The position numbers and the translations under genes are program-made. A DNA stretch of 64,000 bases from Trigonopsis variabilis (taxonomy: Eukaryota; Ascomycota; Trigonopsidomycetes; Trigonopsidales; Trigonopsidaceae), in contig PPXM03000005.1 of NCBI GenBank assembly GCA_003707065.3, positions 124,001 through 188,000 on the forward strand, given 5' to 3'. Shown here piece after piece: positions 22,008-33,339 of this stretch (position 1 is its first letter; each line of letters opens with the position of its first letter). The notes beneath the pieces are model-generated. The model saw nothing but the letters and a program-made list of their open reading frames with translations, ran no database searches and was not told where the DNA came from.

Positions 22008-22643
22008 TCAATCTCCACAAGACAAACTAGTCTTTATGTAACGATTTAGAAGTCGCTGGACCGGGATTGGTCCTTGATTATCCTCGACGGCAGGGATGAG
22101 ATCAAGGTCGACCAATTCGGGATTTAAAATTGGCATTGAGTTGAGAAGCACGTCTGACCGCTCCCCAAGAACCAGTCTGATGGGACATTGCCCGTTATGA
22201 TTACAGCCGCAAGGTAGATCAAGAGGTCTAACACCGATGGCGCGGGCTAGAAGAGCCAAAGTCTTCGAGACACCTTGGAAACTCCACTCAGAGCTAGCCG
22301 AGAAATGGCAGTCCAACAAATTGTAAATGAAAACAGATTTGTACTTGTCCCATTCTGTCAACGTCACATAGGCTCGAAACCGCGGTAGGGAATCAAGCCA
22401 GATGACCTGTAACTTCCCAACAGCACCAAAATTTCTCAAAGTTAACAATCGCTCCGTGGCCTTTGACCCGGACACTTCAAATAGCTCCTCGATGGACTCA
22501 TCACGCCCTCGCAAGACTATAAGAATTGCATGCGACAGTTCCTGGCTACCAATAATGCAGTCAACAAAATCGCAGAAGCTTTTTGAGCTGACAAAGGCAG
22601 GATAGTCCGAGTCATCAAGCAATTTCAAAGTACCAAGAGCCAT
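22008..22643 (-). CDS. Unrecognised 211-aa protein, possibly RecA-fold
   Basis: A single-exon protein of 211 aa starting at the ATG at 22643. It alternates short hydrophobic strands and helices (HAILIVLRG, KLQVIWLDSL, KSVFIYNLLD). The segment SEWSFQGVSKTLALLARAIG followed by RPLDLP looks like the late part of a RecA/Rad51-type core, as in Rad51 paralogues or Elongator Elp6. No Walker A motif is present. The resemblance is weak and I do not assign a function. It is convergent with NUF2, 201 nt apart. Confidence 0.5.
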   Translation of the reverse strand: MALGTLKLLDDSDYPAFVSSKSFCDFVDCIIGSQELSHAILIVLRGRDESIEELFEVSGSKATERLLTLRNFGAVGKLQVIWLDSLPRFRAYVTLTEWDKYKSVFIYNLLDCHFSASSEWSFQGVSKTLALLARAIGVRPLDLPCGCNHNGQCPIRLVLGERSDVLLNSMPILNPELVDLDLIPAVEDNQGPIPVQRLLNRYIKTSLSCGD

Positions 22644-22946: not shown

Positions 22947-23285
22947 TCACAAGTTCCATATCGATGATAGAGGCGGACGAGGACAAGACGTGATTGCTCG
23001 ATACTGCGCCAATGACGATAAGATTAATTCACGCTGCTGGTCGCTGAACATGTTGGTTGGGATCTTGGAATAGTCTAGATACTCCTCAGGAAGAACCGGG
23101 TGCGCATTAAGTACCATAGAGAGATCAAAACCCTGAAATGGATCATAGTCCAGATACCCTGCATCTCTAAACGATGGCTCATTATCTTCGCAGCTTCCAA
23201 GCAGCCATTCTCGAAATCGGTTATTGCCCTTTTTTCCGCCCAGACGCATCAACCAGTGCATAACCGTTCTTAAATGACGAAACAT
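22947..23285 (-). CDS. Doubtful small protein
   Basis: An open frame of 112 codons from the ATG at 23285; a few residues upstream are also open before a stop. It has a basic start with several Arg, then a Gly-Lys-Lys stretch and an acidic, Tyr/Pro-containing second half. No family is recognised. It borders the secreted-protein cluster and might be a real small gene, the last exon of a longer one, or chance. Confidence 0.3.
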   Translation of the reverse strand: MFRHLRTVMHWLMRLGGKKGNNRFREWLLGSCEDNEPSFRDAGYLDYDPFQGFDLSMVLNAHPVLPEEYLDYSKIPTNMFSDQQRELILSSLAQYRAITSCPRPPLSSIWNL

Positions 23286-23516: not shown

Positions 23517-26460
23517 TTAAAAGAGGAACATAAAGGCGGTAAGACCTGACAATCCAGCGGCAGTTACAGATGCAGCCATCTTGACAGATGCACCCTCAAA
23601 TGTGCTTGGGCTTGACGGGGTTGATTTCAAAGCGGCCTGGCTAGGAGCGGTGATCTTTCCAGTAGGAGTCGGGGAAGTTTTGAGGGACACTTGGCTAGGG
23701 CTGGTCACAGTGCCAGTAGGCGTAGGAGACCGTAAGGCTTGTTGAACGGGAGCAGTAATTGATCCTGTGGGGGTGGGAGATGATTTAAGAGCTTGCTGTG
23801 CAGCAACAGAAGAGGAGCCAGTCGAAGGTAGTTGATTAAGTTGCGAGCCAGCAGGGACCGAGGGACTGGCAGGAGAGCCATCAACAGGACTCACACCGCG
23901 AGCAGGAGAACCGGGACTAGACAATAGGTTTTGAGGACTGGAAGGACTGGAACCAGAGCCAGAAGCTGGTAAAGAGTCATCAGCAGCAATGTTTCCAGCA
24001 GGAGCGGCCTGAGTGTCAAGAGATGCGAGTTGACCAGGAATAGAAGAGCCAGGAACTCGTGTAGAAAGAGCAGATGCTGGTGACTGTGCTTCGGCCGGTG
24101 ACTGTGATTGCGCTTGTGATTGCGCTTGTGTCTGTGCTTGAGCATAAACAATCTTGAGCGCAGCCTCTTGTTGTGGAGTGCAAATGACGGTGGGGACGGG
24201 TTGGCAATCAGAGCACACAGCCTGGGCAGATGCACTAGCAGAAGCAACAGCTTGACTAAGCGATGCGCTTGACGGAACGCAGACGAGCTTGCTCATAAGA
24301 CAGCCTCCAAAGGCGCAGTTACCGGGAGTAGATTGAGACTTATCCATGTTGTTGACATTGTTGACATTGTTGACAGTAATGTTACCGGTGAAGTTACCGC
24401 TCACATAGTTGGTGAAGTACTGGTTGTAGATATCACCAGAGGATTGAGGCACAGAGAAATAGATAACTTGGCAGTTGTCACTCGGTTGAGCCGAAGCAGT
24501 GGCAACAGCAGAGGCAGAGGCAGCAGCATGGGCAGCAAACGAAGCATTCATGGCCTGAACAAGAGGGACACAGTTGAGACTAGTAAGGAGGCTCTTAGAA
24601 TTGGCACCTGCGGAAGCCAAAGAGTTCGATGCCGCATCTGCTTGCGAGATAGCACTAGAAACTGCATTAGCCTCAGACTGGGAAAGAGAACCTGCTGCGA
24701 CAGCATTTGCAACAGCATTGGCAGAAGAGCCAGATCCGTTAGCAAAAGCACTGGCAGCAGCATTAGCGGAAGCAGAACCAGACCCATTAGCTTGAGCAGT
24801 GGCAGCAGCATTAGCGGAAGCAGAACCAGACCCATTAGCTTGAGCAGTGGCAGCAGCATTAGCGGAAGCAGAACCCGACCCATTAGCTTGAGCACTGGCA
24901 GCAGCACTTGCGCTGGAAGAACCACTATTAGAGGTAGCTCCTGCACTAGCTCCGGCGCTGGAAGAACCACCATTAGAGGTAGCTCCTGCACTAGCTCCGG
25001 CGCTGGAAGAACCGCCATTAGAGGTAGCTCCCGCACTAGCTCCGGCGCTTGCTCCAGCAGACCCGCTCTGAGCACTCGCCGAAGCGCTGGCACTGGCAGA
25101 AGCGCCGGCACCGCTCACAGACGAAGTGCTTGTAGGCACAACACTGGACGTGCTAGTGGTCGTGGGGCTTGTTATGGGAGTAGGTCCTTGAGTAAAAGAC
25201 TGAGCCAAGGGCGTGGGGCCTTGAGTAAAAGATTGAGGGCCCGGAGGAGTAGGTCCTTGACTGAACTGTGGCTGATTAAAATAATAAGAGCTGATGACAT
25301 CGGTGCCAGACGTATCAGAAGAAGGAAAGACAGGATAGGGACGATACGCTCCTTGATTAGTGTCAGGTTCTTGATCACCGCCACTATAAAATGAGCTAAT
25401 GACGTCCTGGTTAGACGTATGAGCAAAAGGAAAGACAGGAGGATACGCTCCTTGATTAGCGTCAGGTTCTTGATCACCGCCACTATAAAATGAGCTAATG
25501 ACGTCCTTGTTAGACGTATGAGCAAAAGGAAAGACAGGATAGGGCGGAACTCCTTCAGTAGAATCCAAACCACCAACGCCCGGAGAGGCAGTAGATTCAG
25601 CAGAGAGCGAAGGAGTAGGAGCAAAAGCAGAAGAGTCAAAAGAGGAAAGTCGTGCAGTTAGTGCCTTGGGCTGGACAGTCGGCGTAGGAGCCTCGCTGGA
25701 GCCAACATCTGAAGAGCTAGCATCTTGAGAATCGGAAAAACGGGAAGCATAAGATTTCCCGTACCAGTCGGCGTCCTTGTCGTTGTAATTCAGAGACTTT
25801 GCATACTGATAGCCTCTTTGGTAGGCTTGGTCATAGGTGAGAGCAGAAGACAAAGAGGGAAGTTGCTTGGGCTGGACAGTCGGTGTAGGAGCCTCGCTGG
25901 AGCCAGCATCTGCAGAGCTAGCATCTTGAGAATTGGAAAAATGGGAAGCATAAGATTTCCCGTACCAGTCAGCGTCCTTGTCGTTGTAATTCAGACCCTT
26001 TGCATACTGATAGCCTCTTTGGTAGGCTTGGTCATAGGTGAGAAGACCACTGGTTTGGCCTTGTGTTCCAGTAGGTGCAGAGGAAGGCGCAGTGGTAGAA
26101 GAGCAAGATCCAGTGACACAAGGGTCGAAAGCCAGACCAGCATTATAGGCGAGAATACAATCATCAGAATCGGCCTCCTCATCCGTGCAGATGGGGATAT
26201 TCGCGTCAGCACGAGCCTTCAACATTAGACAACGAAATGTTAGCTTTTTACACTTACTGCAATAGCCGAAGGGGCAGAAGCGGCATTGGAAGAACACGAG
26301 TACTCATTACCAGATGCGTCGAGGCACATAGCATTACTACCAGGCTTCAAAAATTAGACCCAGAAACAAGAAATTATGCACTTACTGCAGAGGAAGCAGC
26401 ACGCGTCAGCGTAGCCGAGGCAGTTATCGCTGCCAGAACAAAAGAAGAGGAGAACTTCAT
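23517..26460 (-). CDS. Secreted GPI-type repeat protein (cluster member 1)
   Basis: Three exons, 26460-26386, 26344-26258 and 26216-23517, joined in phase 0 over two 41-nt introns, give 953 aa. Exon 1 is exactly a 25-residue signal peptide (MKFSSSFVLAAITASA...). After it come a short Cys-containing part, two copies of a 60-66-residue Tyr-rich repeat, three copies of a YPVFPFAHTS repeat, QGPTP repeats, a long Ala/Ser/Gly tract with ANGSGSASANAAATAQ units, and a Cys/Asn-rich module at about 602-733. A Gln/Ala/Ser tract, four SPTPTG-type repeats and a hydrophobic C terminus (about 20 residues, GPI-type) close it. It is probably anchored at the wall or membrane. No family is recognised. Confidence 0.8.
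23590..23820 (-). repeat. SPTPTG C-terminal repeats in cluster member 1
   Basis: Three clear units carry (S)SPTPTGxITAP or close variants, spaced by ALKS/ALR stretches, just before the GPI-type tail. A diverged fourth unit follows. One such unit also occurs in cluster member 4, before its own tail. Boundaries are approximate. Confidence 0.6.
24180..24575 (-). other. Cys/Asn-rich VSGNFTGN module in cluster member 1
   Basis: About 130 residues. A CVP start is followed by CQVIYFSVP, IYNQYF, VSGNFTGN, a run of NN pairs, a C..GGC element, SKLVC and a CxPVPTVIC end. The same order appears in cluster member 6 (32356-32712). NFT and NIT are N-glycosylation sequons. Confidence 0.7.
24708..25106 (-). 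repeat. Ala/Ser/Gly low-complexity repeat tract
   Basis: Three near-identical GASAGATSNGG-type units are followed by four AQANGSGSASANAAAT-type units of about 16 residues. The DNA repeats are near-identical, which points to recent expansion. They also make long open frames on the other strand. Confidence 0.7.
25341..25541 (-). repeat. YPVFPFAHTS tandem repeats
   Basis: Two near-identical units of about 32 residues (VFPFAHTSN.DVISSFYSGG then DQEPD.NQGAY) are followed by a third, diverged one that continues into the QGPTP region. It is part of cluster member 1. Confidence 0.7.
25662..26042 (-). repeat. Tyr-rich direct repeat pair
   Basis: Two tandem copies, about 180-200 nt each, encode LTYDQAYQRGYQYAK followed by NYNDKDADWYGKSYAS and an APTPTVQPK linker. 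They differ at only a few residues, so the duplication is probably recent. Confidence 0.75.
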
Positions 26461-26980
26461 CGGGGCTGTAATGAAATGATGGCTATCTGCATCCTTTTTA
26501 TATCGTGTACAGCACACGAATATTTCGACTCTGGAATCTATTACCCAAGGCTGGAACAGTCGTGACCCTCACCCCAAAAATTGAAGATATTGCGTTCCTC
26601 CTTTGATATGTCACATTGTGATATTAGACGATTAATAAATATTGATTAATACTTCCAATTCCGGAGATGGGCAAGTCGAGCTAAGCCCCCCTGCACCCCA
26701 AACTGTGACCGTAAAGGACAACCGTTGGTCGACCAAAGCACGCTAGCCGTTCATGTGAAAGTCGGCCAGTGTCCGCTTCCGCAATAAGCTCGAAATGGCA
26801 TAGTTATGGTATCAAGAAAGGTCGTGTAATTGTTCCACTGAATCAGTCCATGACCATTGAGATCTCTAGATCCTCAGTGGTTGTCTCAGGGCAGCATTCC
26901 CGAGTGAAGCGACATGGACCCGGACCCTTTCCAGAACGTTACAGTCTGCATAAGTTCCATGTATCGAGTAACATGCCTGC
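26461..26980 (-). repeat. Duplicated promoter region, copy A
   Basis: The sequence upstream of cluster member 1 aligns along about 500 nt with that upstream of member 2 (28067-28580). Landmarks such as ATTGCGTTCCTC, ATTAATAAATATT and GGACCCTTTCCAGA fall in the same order. Identity is highest near the gene and decays away from it. Confidence 0.7.
26493..26502 (-). promoter_or_regulatory. TATA box of cluster member 1
   Basis: TATAAAAAGG on the minus strand, 33-42 nt upstream of the ATG. The same layout is seen in members 2, 3, 4 and 6. Confidence 0.55.
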
Positions 26981-27662
26981 AACGGCTGGATGGGAGCCCT
27001 AGTCCAGGTAGTACTCCTGCGCGGGTACGGTATAGACACCCTTTCCCGCGGTAACTCTCGCTCTATACGTCCTATAGAAAGTAAGTTGTAGTGCGGACTC
27101 TAACGCAGCTCTCCAATTGCTCTAATTTTCTCTTATTTTAACAAAAGAACAATTTCTGCCTGATTGCGTGCCTCGCGAAGCATTCTACGCTTCTTGCAAA
27201 GCTCTTTTTAAGTCTGTTAATGATTGTGCCTTTATTTGGGGGGCTAGAATTTTAAATCTACGAGCTTAACAACTGAAAATCTGAAATGCTGACAGAGAGG
27301 TTCTTGTGAAACCGCCGTGAGCATCATCACTGTCCGCTCTTTTCGTAAATGACAGCACACACTACTTTATTTACTATTGATGTGACATTCCCAAACAAAC
27401 TCTGGGTTCTAACTTGTTGGATATAGTGTTACGATGCGGATTTCATGATCAACCCTCATAAATTGAGCCGTCTCTCTGTATTATCAGTCATTCTATGCAC
27501 TAAACACCAGAACGTTAGCTCCGAGGTGATGCAGACTAGTCTTTCCTTTAGCCTTGAACCTTATCGTGTTCCTCGTTATCGTTCCGCTTTGGCGAATCGT
27601 AATCTTAGGACCAGATAAATAAACCAGGATTGATCATATTAATCGCTCTAGTTAGAGAGCTC
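26981..27662. other. Intergenic region inside secreted-protein cluster
   Basis: No supported gene. It contains the 3' flank of cluster member 2 and AT-rich sequence. Nothing else is recognisable. Confidence 0.4.
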
Positions 27663-28066
27663 CTATTCAAAGTCAAAAACATCGGAGATATGAGGACTTC
27701 CGGAAAAGTCATCCTCTTGCGGTAAAGTAATATAATACCCAGAAAAGTCATCCTCTTGCGGTAAGGTGGTATAATCCCCAGAAAAGTCATCCTCTTGAGG
27801 TAAGGTTTTATAGTTGATTGTGGGTGGATAGTCCATGGGAGGAGGAGGAGGAAGTGGCTCCCTTTCAGGGGGCAAAGGAGCATCGGGATAGCAGGGATAT
27901 TCCATACCGGTATCGTGATCGACGCATGTAGACATCGGTGCGCCAGGCTTCAAATATTAGACTCAAAAAAACAACGATGTAGTGCACTCACTCCATAGGA
28001 AGTGGCAGAAGCTAAGGTAGCCGAGGCAGTGACAGTAGCCAAAACAAAAGAAGAGGAGAACTTCAT
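27663..28066 (-). CDS. Small secreted Pro-rich repeat protein (cluster member 2)
   Basis: Two exons, 28066-27992 and 27947-27663, joined in phase 0 over a 44-nt intron, give 119 aa. Exon 1 is a 25-residue signal peptide, nearly identical to exon 1 of member 1 (MKFSSSFVLA.. then TASATLA). The second exon starts with the same Pro-Gly as exon 2 of member 1, then becomes a different protein: two Cys, a PLPPEREPLPPPPP tract and three tandem 12-residue units of the type TLPQEDDFSG(D/Y/S). There is no GPI-type tail. It looks like a secreted, acidic, repetitive small protein. Function unknown. Confidence 0.72.
27690..27815 (-). repeat. TLPQEDDFSG tandem repeats
   Basis: Three consecutive units of about 36 nt encode LPQEDDFSG with Tyr-containing spacers. 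The units are almost identical at DNA level. Confidence 0.75.
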
Positions 28067-28580
28067 GGTGAATGAGATAAAATGATGACTATTTCACATC
28101 CCTTTTATATCAAGTCCAGCACTAGAGTATACGGACACGGGAATCTATAACCTGAGGCTCGAGAAGTCGTGACCTTACCATCGCGAGACTATTGCGTTCC
28201 TCTATTAGCATATCATATTGTGACATTAGACTATTAATAAATATTAATTAATATTTCCAATTCTGGAAATGAGAAAATCGAGCTAGGCCCTTGCAAGCAA
28301 AATTAGGCCTAGAAAGTTCAATAGATGACTGATTTGGGTACTCTAAACACTTGAAAGCTGATCGGGTCGCATACAATATCGAGATGTTACTAATATGGGT
28401 ATCAAGGAAACTCGTGCAATTGCATTAGGGAATCGAGTTCATAGCTTTTTGCCAGTTCTGAGCCGTTCGTCTCAGAGCAGCATTCTCTGCCTCGAGCCTA
28501 GTCAAGAGACGACGGACCCTTTCCAGAGCGCTACGCTCTATTCATGATTCCATGTATCAGTCATGCCAACGACGCTCGCA
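28067..28580 (-). repeat. Duplicated promoter region, copy B
   Basis: The counterpart of 26461-26980. The shared block ends near the segment with ATTCCATGTATC, about 510 nt from the start codon. Confidence 0.7.
28101..28110 (-). promoter_or_regulatory. TATA box of cluster member 2
   Basis: ATATAAAAGG on the minus strand, 35-44 nt upstream of the ATG, at the same place as in the duplicated promoter of member 1. Confidence 0.55.
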
Positions 28581-28930
28581 GATAGTGTAGAGGACTGCAC
28601 TGAAGTTAATATTTCCGAACCTATGCCCAATTTCGCTTTGCTTCTAGGTCGGACTATCATGATCGTGGGCTGCTATGTATGTTTTCTCATAGCTTCAAAG
28701 GTCTTATGTTATGGGTACTCTTGTAATTATATCTAGGAAAGTAAACTCTACCATAAAGCTAGTTATATTCTTCTACTTCAGGCAAACCATCTTAGTGTAG
28801 ATGCTGGTTCAGTTTACGTACAAAGATTGTACATGTTTCGCTTCTATTAGGCTCCTCCTCTGATGCATCTATGTGCAACGAACTTATCTTAGGTTGAGTT
28901 CTATATAATGTCCATATTCTCACACACCAA
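28581..28930. other. Intergenic region inside secreted-protein cluster
   Basis: About 350 nt, AT-rich, between the duplicated promoter block and the stop of cluster member 3. No gene seen. Confidence 0.4.
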
Positions 28931-29422
28931 CTAGTTGACGTACCCAATGCTGTTCATAAAAGTTATCCCGTGGTTGTTGCTCGATGTCGTCGATAGTTCA
29001 CCTTCCGCAAATGTGTTGATAACAAGTGGTCTATTGCCGACATCAAAGCTTTGCGCCGTATTATGGTCGCCATCTAAGAAGCTATTGATGATGAGCGGCA
29101 TATTTCCCGACCCTTCGACATTCCCAGGTGTACTTGACTGGGAAATGGAGTTGGCAGGCTGCTGAGACCCAGACACAAAATGCTGAGAAACCTGAATATT
29201 TCCAGACGGCCTAGAAGATCCATCGCCCATCTGCAAGAGTTGGAAGTTTCCCTGATCTCCAAAGCTGTTTGAAGCCTGCTGAATAGAACCGGGTTGGGTA
29301 CCATCCAGGCTTTGAGCCACAATGCTCTGTAAATGAGTATCGAAACTCTGAGGATCAAAACCCAAGGCGCAGATAGCAGATGAAAGAAAGATGCCGAGAT
29401 ATGGTGCAAAAGAGGGTATCAT
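28931..29422 (-). CDS. Secreted Ser/Gln/Asn-rich protein (cluster member 3)
   Basis: A single-exon protein of 163 aa with an N-terminal signal peptide (about 20 residues, ending ICALG). The mature part is rich in Ser, Gln, Asn and Gly. It contains two related segments, NMPLIINSFLDGDHNT and NRPLVINTFAEGELST, about 30 residues apart, an internal duplication. There is no Cys in the mature part and no GPI-type tail. It is unrelated in sequence to members 1 and 2 except for composition and context. Function unknown. Confidence 0.65.
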   Translation of the reverse strand: MIPSFAPYLGIFLSSAICALGFDPQSFDTHLQSIVAQSLDGTQPGSIQQASNSFGDQGNFQLLQMGDGSSRPSGNIQVSQHFVSGSQQPANSISQSSTPGNVEGSGNMPLIINSFLDGDHNTAQSFDVGNRPLVINTFAEGELSTTSSNNHGITFMNSIGYVN

Positions 29423-29958
29423 TATTACAAGAAGAAAGTCTCCTGCGCTGATATTTAAATCATCTCAAATATGTACCTGCATCAGATCAGAATTGATCTG
29501 TCTGAGGAACAATGATCCCATTAAAGATATCATGCCGTCTAGAATTCGCAGATGCTTTATGTAAAGCATAGCTTGACGGGCTATATCGCATCACTTTATA
29601 TTCCAGGTTTTATCTAGAGAACGCACATAAGCGATCTGATTTTTCTGATGGTCCTCTTTGACTAAGTCAATTAATTTGGTGTTCTAATTAATTATCGTGT
29701 CGTTTCTTACGTAGCTGAATGGACACTCATTGTGCACGCTTGGTAGGAAACGTTACAAAAAAGGAATGTCTTGCTGCTGCACAATCGCCGTGAAATCTGA
29801 GACACTCTTAGCAGAGTAGGTGAAAATTTCATAATAAACAATTCCACGATAGCTGCAAAGGGGCTTTTAGCATTCACCGGCAGGAGCGGTCCGTGTAGAT
29901 AATGAATTCTTTAGAGGTTGTTCAGTGCTACATTTATTCGAGGTCAACAACGATTAAT
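29423..29958. other. Intergenic region with a small palindrome
   Basis: About 536 nt, AT-rich. It holds a hairpin ATGCTTTA-TG-TAAAGCAT at 29552-29569 and the TATA-like stretch of member 3 at 29451-29460. No gene seen. Confidence 0.4.
29451..29460 (-). promoter_or_regulatory. TATA-like box of cluster member 3
   Basis: ATTTAAATAT, 29-38 nt upstream of the ATG. The sequence is weaker than in members 1 and 2, but the spacing is the same. Confidence 0.4.
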
Positions 29959-31089
29959 TTAAAGGAAAAAAATCAAAGCAATGATAGCAGTGACGGCACC
30001 AAGTATGCTGGGGGTTCCCTTAGAACCTGATCCTTGTAGAGGAGCAGTCGAGGGTATGGTAGTATTTTTTGAGCTAGCTTTTACTTGAGAAGGTGCTGTA
30101 ATCGTTCCAGTGGGAGTAGGAGATCGGGTGACAAAGGTGTTGAAGCTAGTAACTGTCGCAATTTCGGTCGTAGTGGTCACCGAATCAGGAGTACTGTAGC
30201 CTGAAGGTACTGCCGCGAGGTTCTTAGGTTGAGCAGCAAGAGCTGGATAAGAAGCAAGAGTTGAAGGTGCAGCAAAATTGGGAGACAAATTAAGAGTTGA
30301 AGAAGCGGAAAAAGTTGGAAGAACAGCAATATTTGGAGAGGCAGAAAGAGTTGGAGCAGAAACTGCACTAGTTGAAGCTGGAAAGGGAACTGCGGAAGAG
30401 CTAGAACTGATGGAGTCCAATTGAGAGTTCATTCCAGAGCTGGCGCTTTGTGGGGAAGCACAAGTGCATTCACAGTTTTCAGCGGCGGCTTGAGCAACCT
30501 TGGCTGCTTGAACGAGAGCTTGAGCTTGGATCATAGATAAAAAGCCAGCAGCGGCCAAAGCTTGAGTAAGCTCATCTATAGATGCAGCATCAACATCACC
30601 ATTGGCCTGCGCAATACTGTTAGCGCTGGCGCTGGCACCGGCACCGGCAAAAGCGCCATTATTAGCACCAGCTCCGCTTTGGGCAGAAGCAAGAGCTCCA
30701 GCTTGAGCAAAGGAACCCATGCCAGGGGACCTGCTTGGCTGGAATCGTGGGCCCTTAGGAGGGCCAGGGGGGCCTGGCGGCCCTTGTCCTCTATTACCAG
30801 AGGCGCCAGTCAAAAGATCATCGTTTTCCTCATCATCGCTATCCTCGGTATCGCTATCATCATCATCACCATCCTGATCGGCTGCATAACCTGATCCATA
30901 AGAAGATCCTTGGGCGACTGCGGAACCAGAAGAAGAGCCACCGAATCCACCTAGATCCCTAGAGGTGAGTCCAGTGTTGAAACTACCTGGTGCTGAAATC
31001 TCAGCCCCGACGGAACCATGAGTCAAGTCCTGAGCGAGAGAGAAGGCTACTTGATTTGCTGCCAAGATGATGGGTAGGGAAAACTTCAT
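29959..31089 (-). CDS. Secreted GPI-type protein with collagen-like stretch (cluster member 4)
   Basis: A single-exon protein of 376 aa. A signal peptide of about 19 residues (MKFSLPIILA...) precedes a Gly/Ser region, a dense acidic run (DGDDDDSDTEDSDDEENDD) and a short collagen-like GPPGPPGPP element. An Ala/Ser/Gly tract like that of members 1 and 6, a helical Ala/Gln-rich segment with a CECTC cluster and a Ser/Ala/Thr-rich stalk come next. One SPTPTGTITAPS unit, as in member 1, leads to a hydrophobic tail (LGAVTAIIALIFFL) that fits a GPI signal. It is probably an outer-surface or wall protein. I recognise no named family. Confidence 0.78.
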   Translation of the reverse strand: MKFSLPIILAANQVAFSLAQDLTHGSVGAEISAPGSFNTGLTSRDLGGFGGSSSGSAVAQGSSYGSGYAADQDGDDDDSDTEDSDDEENDDLLTGASGNRGQGPPGPPGPPKGPRFQPSRSPGMGSFAQAGALASAQSGAGANNGAFAGAGASASANSIAQANGDVDAASIDELTQALAAAGFLSMIQAQALVQAAKVAQAAAENCECTCASPQSASSGMNSQLDSISSSSSAVPFPASTSAVSAPTLSASPNIAVLPTFSASSTLNLSPNFAAPSTLASYPALAAQPKNLAAVPSGYSTPDSVTTTTEIATVTSFNTFVTRSPTPTGTITAPSQVKASSKNTTIPSTAPLQGSGSKGTPSILGAVTAIIALIFFL

Positions 31090-31120
31090 TTGGGTTCAAC
31101 AGGTTTAGATGATCAAGGCC

Positions 31121-31134
31121 GATATTTATTTATG
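31121..31134 (-). promoter_or_regulatory. TATA-like box of cluster member 4
   Basis: CATAAATAAATATC on the minus strand, 32-45 nt upstream of the ATG. It overlaps the last few bases of the doubtful gene at 31130-31509. Confidence 0.4.
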
Positions 31135-31509
31135 CTCCTTGAATTAGACCATTCGTAGTGGAATTAATATTTGTCAGGAACGAGTTTCGTGGGCTTTCAG
31201 TCTCATTCATGCCCGGGCACAAATGTATGTCGCCATGCCGAACTTCACAATGAAAGCTACTGACGATCCTTCTTTGCGCACCTTTAATGGATCTCAGTAT
31301 CAAGGATACAAGTGCTAGTTTCATGAAAAGGAGGTATATATTCTACCTGGCATTGGAATCACATATATTCCGGCAGTTACAGTGACAGCACCGGGGATGA
31401 TTAAGCCCAAATAGGCAGTTATGACACACGGAACAAATGCCAGAAAGGGGCGCGTAGTAACGAAAACGATACTCTGGTGGTTCCATGAATGAAGTTGTCT
31501 GAATTTCAT
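31130..31509 (-). CDS. Doubtful small protein (cluster member 5)
   Basis: Two open frames, 31509-31347 and 31314-31130, join in frame over a 32-nt GTAGAA...ACTAG intron (phase 1), giving 115 aa. The first 50 residues contain a hydrophobic segment (PCVITAYLGLIIPGAVTVTAGIYVI). The rest is basic with a few Cys. The splice signals are poor and no family is recognised, so it could be chance or a decayed gene. Its end lies only 40 nt upstream of the start of member 4. Confidence 0.3.
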
Positions 31510-32184
31510 TGTACATTATTTTATATGACCGTTTGTAGGTTGGACCTAGGTATGGGAGACATGACCAGGATGAGGATCCAGCGCGAGGGCTTACACGTTT
31601 CTGTTATCTAGCTCGATACCGTGGACGTCTTTGTAGTTATTATATTTACGAAGTTGGCATGTTGCGTATTTTCAGTATTTTCGGAATTATCGTTTTGGGT
31701 TATAGTAATACGCAAAGAAGTTTCTCTTCCAAAATACAGCAGGTCCTGGTCGTCCAGTTTCCAGCTGAACAGGTCTCTCTTTTTGATCACTTGGATCTCC
31801 AGTAAAGTAGTGTTCTCAGTCCACATTGGAAACGAGAATTAAACTAGAAGAAGACATCGATGAGAAAGGACATCCTGAACTAGCAAGTGCAGTAGTAATA
31901 ATAGGCTTTCTAAGACCAACAATACCAAGACTTCTTCTCTCTAGTAAAGTACAGTCATTTGTAGGTGAAAAATTATTCCTTTCGCAGGCGAAAAGTCTAT
32001 TCGACAGATCTCTTAGAGGGGCAGGATGATCTTATATCATGACTCTAATAATCAAGTAAGAAAGGCAGGAATAATTTATTAGCTACTGTGAGTCAAAAGG
32101 GACGACCTATTTGGGAACGCGAAATCATGTCAGACATGTTGAACTACATTTTTGCTGAGTCGGAGATTAAACTAACTTATACAC
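31510..32184. other. Intergenic region with possible gene remnant
   Basis: About 675 nt. A 72-codon minus-strand frame at 31608-31826 carries LLEIQVIKKRDLFSWKLDDQ, which faintly resembles the start of a C2 domain. It could be a remnant or chance. Nothing else was recognised. Confidence 0.3.
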
Positions 32185-33339
32185 CTAAAGAAAAGCAGCG
32201 ATCGCGACAGTACCAAGCCCACAGGCAAAGACAGACAAAGACGACGGCGATAAAGAGATAGCTGCACCGACAAACGCCTTTGGAGCCATAAGAGTGCTAT
32301 TGTTTGTAGCAAGATTCTCTCTAGTAGCAGCAGTGGACGAGGGAGAAGCTTCAGAGCAGATCACTGAAGGAATAGGCTTGCAATCAGGAATCTCGGTAGT
32401 AGCAGCGGCTTGGGCGGAAGAAATAGCCGTCGAGAGGCCGTCAGAGTGAGAGGCGCAAATGAGCTTGCTGAGAACGCACTTTCCATTAGCACAAGAAGTA
32501 GCGGCACCGATATTAATGTTGTTGATATTGTTAGTGTTGTTAATTGTAGCGTTACCCGTGAAGTTTCCAGACACGCTATTGCTAACAAATTGGTTGTATA
32601 CGTGCTCGTGGTGGGACTCTGGGATGAAAAAGTGCACGTATTGGCATACATGATCGGCATTGTCCGCACCTTCAAACTTGGGTAATTTGTCCGCTTGATC
32701 GGCAGGAATGCAATCTCGAGAAAGGTCTATCGAAGGGATGTCGCTGATGGCAGCACCATTGAATGCTTGTGCATTCGAGGCAACATTAATGCTTTGTGTT
32801 GCTGGATGGAAACCAGCAGCCCCCGCAGAAGCAGCAGCGGAAGCGTTAGCAGAAGACGAGAAGCCTTTAGCAGAAGCATGAGCCTGGGCGTTTGCTTCAG
32901 CGTTGGCCCCATTACCAGAAGCACTAGCAGAAGCGTCAGCGTGCGCGTCGGCAGAGCCGTTTCCAGAAGCACTAGCAGAGGCTCCGGCGGAAGCATTAGC
33001 ATTGACATCACCATGGCCAGAAGCATGAGCAGAGGCTCCAACGGAAGCTTCAGCGTTAGAATCACCATTTCCAGAAGCATGAGCAGAAGCCCCAGCAGAA
33101 GCAGAGGCAGAAGCTCCACCAGCTAGGCTGGTCGTCGCTGGAGTGGAGGAAGTAGACGGGCCAAGAACAGAGCTTGAAACAGTTGAAGAGGACAACGAAG
33201 TAGGAGCGCTGGGAGTTTCTGAGACAGAAGAATGGACCGCATAGGGCTCGTAGTAACCGCCATCAGAATAACCTGAAATGACATCGGCTTGGACAGCCAA
33301 GGTACAATAAGCAGCAACAAAAGCAAGCGAGAGTCTCAT
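32185..33339 (-). CDS. Secreted GPI-type Ala/Ser-rich protein (cluster member 6)
   Basis: A single-exon protein of 384 aa from the ATG at 33339. A signal peptide (MRLSLAFVAAYCTLAVQA) is followed by a Ser/Thr-rich stretch and an Ala/Ser/Gly repeat tract at about 75-177 with GASAHASGxGDxNA-type units. The Cys/Asn-rich module shared with member 1 occupies about 209-328. A Ser/Thr-rich stalk with NNST and a hydrophobic C terminus (VFACGLGTVAIAAFL, GPI-type) follow. The combination of repeat tract, module, stalk and tail mirrors member 1 and makes the two clear paralogues. Probably a cell-surface protein. Function unknown. Confidence 0.8.
   Translation of the reverse strand: MRLSLAFVAAYCTLAVQADVISGYSDGGYYEPYAVHSSVSETPSAPTSLSSSTVSSSVLGPSTSSTPATTSLAGGASASASAGASAHASGNGDSNAEASVGASAHASGHGDVNANASAGASASASGNGSADAHADASASASGNGANAEANAQAHASAKGFSSSANASAAASAGAAGFHPATQSINVASNAQAFNGAAISDIPSIDLSRDCIPADQADKLPKFEGADNADHVCQYVHFFIPESHHEHVYNQFVSNSVSGNFTGNATINNTNNINNINIGAATSCANGKCVLSKLICASHSDGLSTAISSAQAAATTEIPDCKPIPSVICSEASPSSTAATRENLATNNSTLMAPKAFVGAAISLSPSSLSVFACGLGTVAIAAFL
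32356..32712 (-). other. Cys/Asn-rich VSGNFTGN module in cluster member 6
   Basis: CIPADQ start, CQYVHFFIP, VYNQFV, VSGNFTGN, NN pairs, C..GKC, SKLIC, then CKPIPSVIC. It matches the module of member 1 in order, spacing and Cys positions, while the flanking repeats differ. Confidence 0.72.

Follow-up and report, generated by a model that had tools for sequence, protein, structure and literature searches.

What kind of proteins is encoded by the genes that lie in tandem on the minus strand at positions 23517-33339 of a stretch of the Trigonopsis variabilis genome, and are these genes related to one another? The stretch, here called the window, comprises the 64 kb C5:124001-188000 of contig PPXM03000005.1; coordinates without a contig name refer to it, and our genome searches covered 15 contigs (11.35 Mb). 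Judged by protein similarity, the fungus is probably an early-branching budding yeast: ribosomal protein L3 gives its highest scores with chains of 7pzy (Candida albicans) and 6uz7 (Kluyveromyces lactis), and the 51-kDa subunit of complex I aligns best with 6gcs (NUBM of Yarrowia lipolytica; 824 bits), ahead of 7zm7 (Chaetomium; 740 bits). The cluster, whose genes we call g1, g2, g3, g4 and g6, is real, is partly homologous and is largely an ordinary kind of fungal surface-protein cluster. We consider it fairly probable that its products are glycosylphosphatidylinositol (GPI)-anchored wall glycoproteins with a structural and/or adhesive role, accompanied by small secreted relatives, and that they diversified by duplication and module exchange.

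Modules shared by the cluster genes

Judged from its sequence, g1 is a mosaic hub that shares modules with g2, g6 and g4 and with unlinked genes. It encodes a predicted secreted mosaic protein of 953 residues with a GPI-like hydrophobic tail (exons 26460-26386, 26344-26258 and 26216-23517, minus strand), starting at 26460 and interrupted by two introns of 41 nucleotides (26385-26345 and 26257-26217); the spliced frame is open. Its neighbour g2 starts at 28066, has a single intron (27991-27948) between exons 28066-27992 and 27947-27663 of the minus strand, and encodes a predicted secreted protein of 119 residues with three acidic LPQEDDFSG units and without a GPI-like tail. The short introns of both genes have the common form GT[A/G]AGTG...TCTAAT...TTGAAG, and only when they are spliced out are the signal-peptide exons restored and both predicted signal peptides regained. 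The 376-residue protein of g4 (29959-31089, minus) has an acidic run, a PPGPPGPP run, an Ala/Ser-rich middle and a GPI-like hydrophobic tail, and the 384-residue protein of g6 (32185-33339, minus) is composed of an Ala/Ser/Gly stalk, a cysteine domain and again a GPI-like hydrophobic tail. These four genes are well supported by their models and by codon usage. Their codon index, calculated with a reference of two genes only (L3 and EF1A) and compared with a background of 12 neighbouring open reading frames (ORFs; mean 0.345, standard deviation 0.056), is 0.419 for g1, 0.443 for g2, 0.399 for g4 and 0.454 for g6; each value equals or exceeds that of at least 10 of the 12 neighbours, and the coding frame ranks top of six.

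The 5' ends of g1 and g2 are homologous at the DNA level. In a self-BLASTN comparison the g1 block 26340-26688 matches the g2 block 27943-28290, both on the minus strand, with 76% identity across 355 columns (E 1.6e-61), which takes in the promoter, the first exon with the signal peptide and the first intron. Searched against the genome, g2 matches itself and the signal exon of g1 (E 0.0075), and a match on C3 is at chance level (E 0.345). The second relationship is that of the cysteine domain, which spans residues 597-735 of g1 (24174-24590) and residues 202-330 of g6 (32350-32736), both minus strand with hand-computed coordinates. The two copies have 44% identity, seven conserved cysteines and two common positions of N-glycosylation sequons, and their alignment scores 106 bits, while none of 2000 shuffles, of which 1045 could be aligned, scored above 32. 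The stalk is also common to g1 and g6. Among the genome matches listed, the cysteine domain is found in g1 and g6 only; one more entry, on C2 (E 0.168), concerns the Ala-rich part and falls outside the domain. A third and shorter similarity connects the Pro/Thr tails of g1, with its SPTPTG-x-ITAP repeats (approximately 23640-23790, minus), and g4, with the motif SPTPTGTITAPSQ (approximately 30084-30123, minus), with a score of 39.7 bits, where the best shuffle reached 34.3 (1986 of 2000 shuffles aligned).

The outer part of g1 carries a Tyr-rich unit (TYDQAYQRGYQYAK..NYNDKDADWYGKSYA) in two tandem copies of 201 bp (25665-26043, minus; 95% match), with 94% DNA identity between them and nonsynonymous and synonymous divergences of dN 0.059 and dS 0.053; by their sequences the two units are recent copies. 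Kin units occur in two unlinked paralogues, a predicted secreted protein encoded at C11:335689-336237 and its 64% identical partner at C1:1786947-1787477. The match is weak but reciprocal, with E values of 0.07 and 0.27 from g1 and of 0.007 and 0.011 back to g1 in genome searches, and direct BLASTP comparisons give E values between about 1e-5 and 0.01. Both genes begin with a signal exon of 26-27 codons and a short intron directly after it, as g1 and g2 do, and both proteins consist by eye of four units of about 32 residues each. The divergence between them (dN 0.30, dS 1.18) indicates purifying selection. A tRNA-Leu with anticodon TAA lies near the C11 gene (L014:1765-1861, minus); it has 97 bases, perhaps with an intron.

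Tandem repeats were identified with Tandem Repeats Finder. They are strong in g1 (units of 201, 99, 48 and 45 bp, 93-97% match), g2 (39 bp, 92%) and g6 (54 bp, 81%, at 32963-33103 on the minus strand, forming its Ala/Ser/Gly stalk) and weak in g4 (a 15-bp array of 72% and an 18-bp array of 67%). Within g1, the 99-bp units (DVISSFYSGGDQEP...) occupy 25339-25539 (minus, 97%), and the 48-bp and 45-bp units build the Ala/Ser/Gly stalk at 24726-25049 (minus), where sequons at residues 499, 515, 531 and 547 are spaced by 16 amino acids, in phase with the 48-bp DNA repeat. The first-pass annotation of this locus had seen internal repeats in four members and proposed growth by tandem duplication and shuffling. 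The repeats are confirmed, and the shared 5' block, the cysteine domain with its stalk, the tail and the Tyr-rich unit in two unlinked genes all point to the proposed mode of growth.

Two further observations concern the g1 sequence. A plus-strand open frame of 288 amino acids (24528-25394) lies opposite the g1 repeats; rather than a gene, it is probably a side effect of their repeated codons. On C4 (949406-949458) there is a lone 53-bp copy, 98% identical, of window positions 26241-26293, sited between ORFs; its source is the end of exon 2 and the start of intron 2 of g1, and it looks like a break-repair capture.

One might ask whether these resemblances reflect nothing but a common Ala/Ser/Gly bias in unrelated wall proteins that are neighbours by chance. 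In favour of this view, g3 has nothing detectable in common with the other members, and a candidate homology between the N-terminus of g6 (DVISGYSDGG) and the DVIS repeats of g1 was rejected since its 23.9 bits are no better than shuffles, the best of which reached 28.1. However, a cysteine-domain score three times that of the best shuffle, and DNA homology that runs through a promoter and an intron, are hard to reconcile with composition. As an account of the whole cluster this explanation seems very unlikely to us, and for g1/g2 and g1/g6 the sequence comparisons have largely refuted it.

Surface anatomy and competing readings

The termini of the proteins were assessed by hydrophobicity, requiring a best 9-residue mean above 1.9 in the first 26 residues for the N-terminus and a best 12-residue mean above 1.5 for the C-terminus; as background we used 27 mechanical ORFs of at least 130 amino acids from other parts of the window, including a few that overlap. 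Four of the five cluster proteins have a hydrophobic N-terminus, against 5 of the 27 background ORFs. A signal peptide had been claimed for all five; the hydrophobic N-terminus agrees with this in four, and g2 is borderline with 1.82, just under the cut-off. A hydrophobic C-terminal tail is found in g1, g4 and g6 and in 1 of the 27 background ORFs, which, on hydrophobicity only, agrees with the GPI-type tails proposed earlier for the same three proteins. Serine and threonine together make up 27.1% of g1, 23.9% of g4 and 23.2% of g6, alanine makes up 17-21% of each, and there are 7, 2 and 8 sequons in g1, g4 and g6, respectively. Repeat arrays, composition and sequons thus give tandem repeats with a Ser/Thr-rich stalk that could be glycosylated, and from this anatomy g1, g4 and g6 are likely GPI-type surface proteins. 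A crude six-residue count of amyloid propensity, judged by eye, finds a few short segments.

From these features we infer secretion, glycosylation, anchoring, a location at the wall and a structural or adhesive role. The proteins of g1, g4 and g6 would enter the endoplasmic reticulum through their signal peptide, would be N- and O-glycosylated on their Ser/Ala/Gly- and Pro/Thr-rich stalks, and would receive a GPI anchor, finally to reside within the cell wall or at its surface. Their repeats would act as a spacer, with the cysteine domain of g1 and g6 placed between stalk and anchor, and the outer end of g1 would display its Cys-containing start and the Tyr-rich units. The proteins of g2 and of the dispersed genes on C11 and C1 would be unanchored secreted relatives. 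Diversification would have proceeded by tandem duplication, as at the 5' ends of g1 and g2, and by exchange of modules, namely the stalk plus cysteine domain, the tail and the Tyr-rich unit.

Several observations weigh against this account. The gene g3 (28931-29422, minus), a 163-residue ORF with a hydrophobic N-terminus whose coding status is uncertain, shows no link to other members in BLASTP searches with a threshold of E 0.05, and a genome search with it finds g3 alone. Its codon index of 0.282 falls short of the average of the neighbouring ORFs and is exceeded in two of the five alternative frames (0.305 and 0.292); g3 is the weaker gene model because codon usage fails to back its frame. 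The genome search with g4 finds only g4 itself, but this search also misses the short tail similarity to g1 and so cannot exclude further copies of the tail. Simple hydrophobicity is the basis for both the signal and the GPI calls, and its N-terminal test is one that 5 of 27 background ORFs pass. Dibasic motifs, a listed feature of adhesins, number 0 in the five cluster proteins. Single-sequence AlphaFold models are unusable, with a mean pLDDT (predicted local distance difference test) of 34.0 for g3 from residue 22 on and of 44.5 for the g6 domain (residues 204-344), so that no fold supports any function. An idea that g3 might be a curli-like beta repeat, judged by eye, was dropped as support was lacking.

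As to the species- or genus-specific system proposed in the first-pass annotation, searches for outside relatives in Pfam, PDB sequences, viral contigs and bacterial and archaeal genomes gave little. None of the five cluster proteins scores above a Pfam family cut-off, and neither do the C11 and C1 proteins; the sole Pfam listing for the cluster is FapA_N in g4, at 15.2 bits against a cut-off of 27. The best matches to PDB sequences are at chance level (E 0.21 for the cysteine-domain profile, 0.45 for g3 and 1.1 for the C11/C1 profile). We found no relative of the cysteine domain or of the C11/C1 proteins in viral contigs, nor of the C11/C1 proteins in bacterial and archaeal genomes, while g2 and g4 were compared with outside databases by Pfam alone. 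The literature that we retrieved is general adhesin work only, which is no proof that nothing is in print.

It is possible, though doubtful, that the proteins are true adhesins. On this view g1 would attach to a ligand or to a second cell through its Cys-containing start and its outer Tyr-rich units, much as Flo, Als or GLEYA proteins do, and g6 and g4 would be shorter variants. The build of g1, in which a signal, outer modules and repeats are joined to a GPI-like tail, would fit this, and its 953 residues fall within the range of 600-2500 that a review quotes for typical adhesins (PMC6023273). On the other side, the Pfam searches place an adhesin domain in none of the five proteins, no folded outer domain is evident in g6 and g4, and the genome has separate genes of the GLEYA adhesin type. 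A stage-specific coat is another conceivable role, in which ascospore wall proteins, or those of another special stage, are switched together by a common regulator. This would be suggested by the hexamer ATTAAT, which occurs within 360 bp upstream of all six family genes counted (g1, g3, g4, g6, C11 and C1) and of none of 18 neighbours, a contrast equalled in 4 of 5000 label permutations; it is also absent from the three GLEYA loci assessed (four were fetched; L037 was left out and L036 covered in part). The homology between the g1 and g2 promoters is the reason why g2 was left out of the count; with g2 included and 400 bp considered (360 bp for C11 and C1) the hexamer is found in 7/7 family promoters against 1/18. 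But the hexamer was picked after inspection, the family promoters are A+T-richer, single-gene dinucleotide-shuffle values for it range from 0.01 to 0.33, and it is present in 19% of 105 noncoding windows that were matched in composition and overlap one another. Once about 2000 hexamers are corrected for, ATTAAT is only suggestive as a common family promoter element; together with the g1/g2 promoter block it is the only hint at co-expression of the members. We regard a stage-specific coat as unlikely.

The reading as GPI-anchored wall glycoproteins with secreted relatives remains the one that we prefer. A bolder version of it, to which we give only a slim chance, is a two-part coat: the Tyr-rich, probably helical units of anchored g1 might bind the same units of the secreted C11 and C1 proteins and so hook soluble proteins onto anchored ones, and the seven-cysteine glycodomain that g1 shares with g6 might be a new wall domain. 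If this were true, the cluster and its dispersed relatives would make up a previously undescribed coat.

Surroundings of the cluster

The first-pass annotation counted five clear genes and one doubtful gene, flanked by housekeeping genes. The tandem minus-strand arrangement holds for g1, g2, g4 and g6, but not for g3 as a clear gene, and the doubtful gene is unproven: between g4 and g6 no ORF longer than 72 amino acids lies wholly inside the interval. A candidate for it is an unsupported ORF of 62 amino acids at 31321-31509 (minus). As to the flanks, four of the eight ORFs submitted have a Pfam family (Nuf2, histidine phosphatase, RNase_T exonuclease and Yippee-Mis18), and the other four have none. 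The latter include two small minus-strand ORFs that adjoin the cluster, at 22008-22643 and 22947-23285.

Comparison with known fungal surface proteins

Repeat-rich GPI proteins are already well known as a class in fungi. If our reading is confirmed, the cluster would be a compact case of fungal surface proteins built by module exchange among neighbours and unlinked genes, in a lineage other than those of the much-studied Candida and Saccharomyces. Two of its modules have no Pfam match, the seven-cysteine glycodomain and the Tyr-rich unit.

According to the review, fungal adhesion molecules are commonly, though not universally, rich in Ser and Thr, glycosylated and GPI-anchored, with tandem repeats, dibasic motifs and amyloid-prone segments, and adhesins and GPI proteins without a recognised N-terminal domain combine a signal with repeats, a glycosylated stalk and a GPI tail (PMC6023273). 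Compared with this list, the cluster sequences have the repeats and the composition, probably have the anchor, and lack the dibasic motifs. Hwp1, Hwp2, Pga22 and Fig2 of Candida albicans and Saccharomyces cerevisiae, as the review describes them (PMC6023273), have a signal peptide, a low-complexity Ser/Thr-rich sequence and a GPI tail, which is the layout predicted for the cluster as well. What sets the cluster apart from these proteins, which we compared by description, is a stalk rich in Ala and Gly in which sequons recur regularly, and a conserved cysteine domain that separates this stalk from the anchor.

GLEYA and Flo-type adhesins have a modular outer part, repeats and a GPI tail, like the layout predicted for the cluster, which in contrast contains no GLEYA or other Pfam adhesin domain. 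There are seven GLEYA matches in the genome (C1:858243-861108, C7:335010-336089 and C14:102269-108844; L036-L039), and since these genes lie on other contigs the canonical kind of adhesin is present separately from the cluster. One of the GLEYA genes, on C14 (L039:727-3651), encodes a long stalk of Ser, Ala and Val together with a hydrophobic tail.

Growth of a surface-type gene family is also reported elsewhere: Saccharomycopsis fermentans is said, going by a title, to have an expanding telomeric family of FLO/ALS-like adhesins. The cluster resembles such families in this growth. It differs from them in its position on a 1.06-Mb contig, about 147 kb from one end, and in having members that are mosaics rather than near copies of one another.

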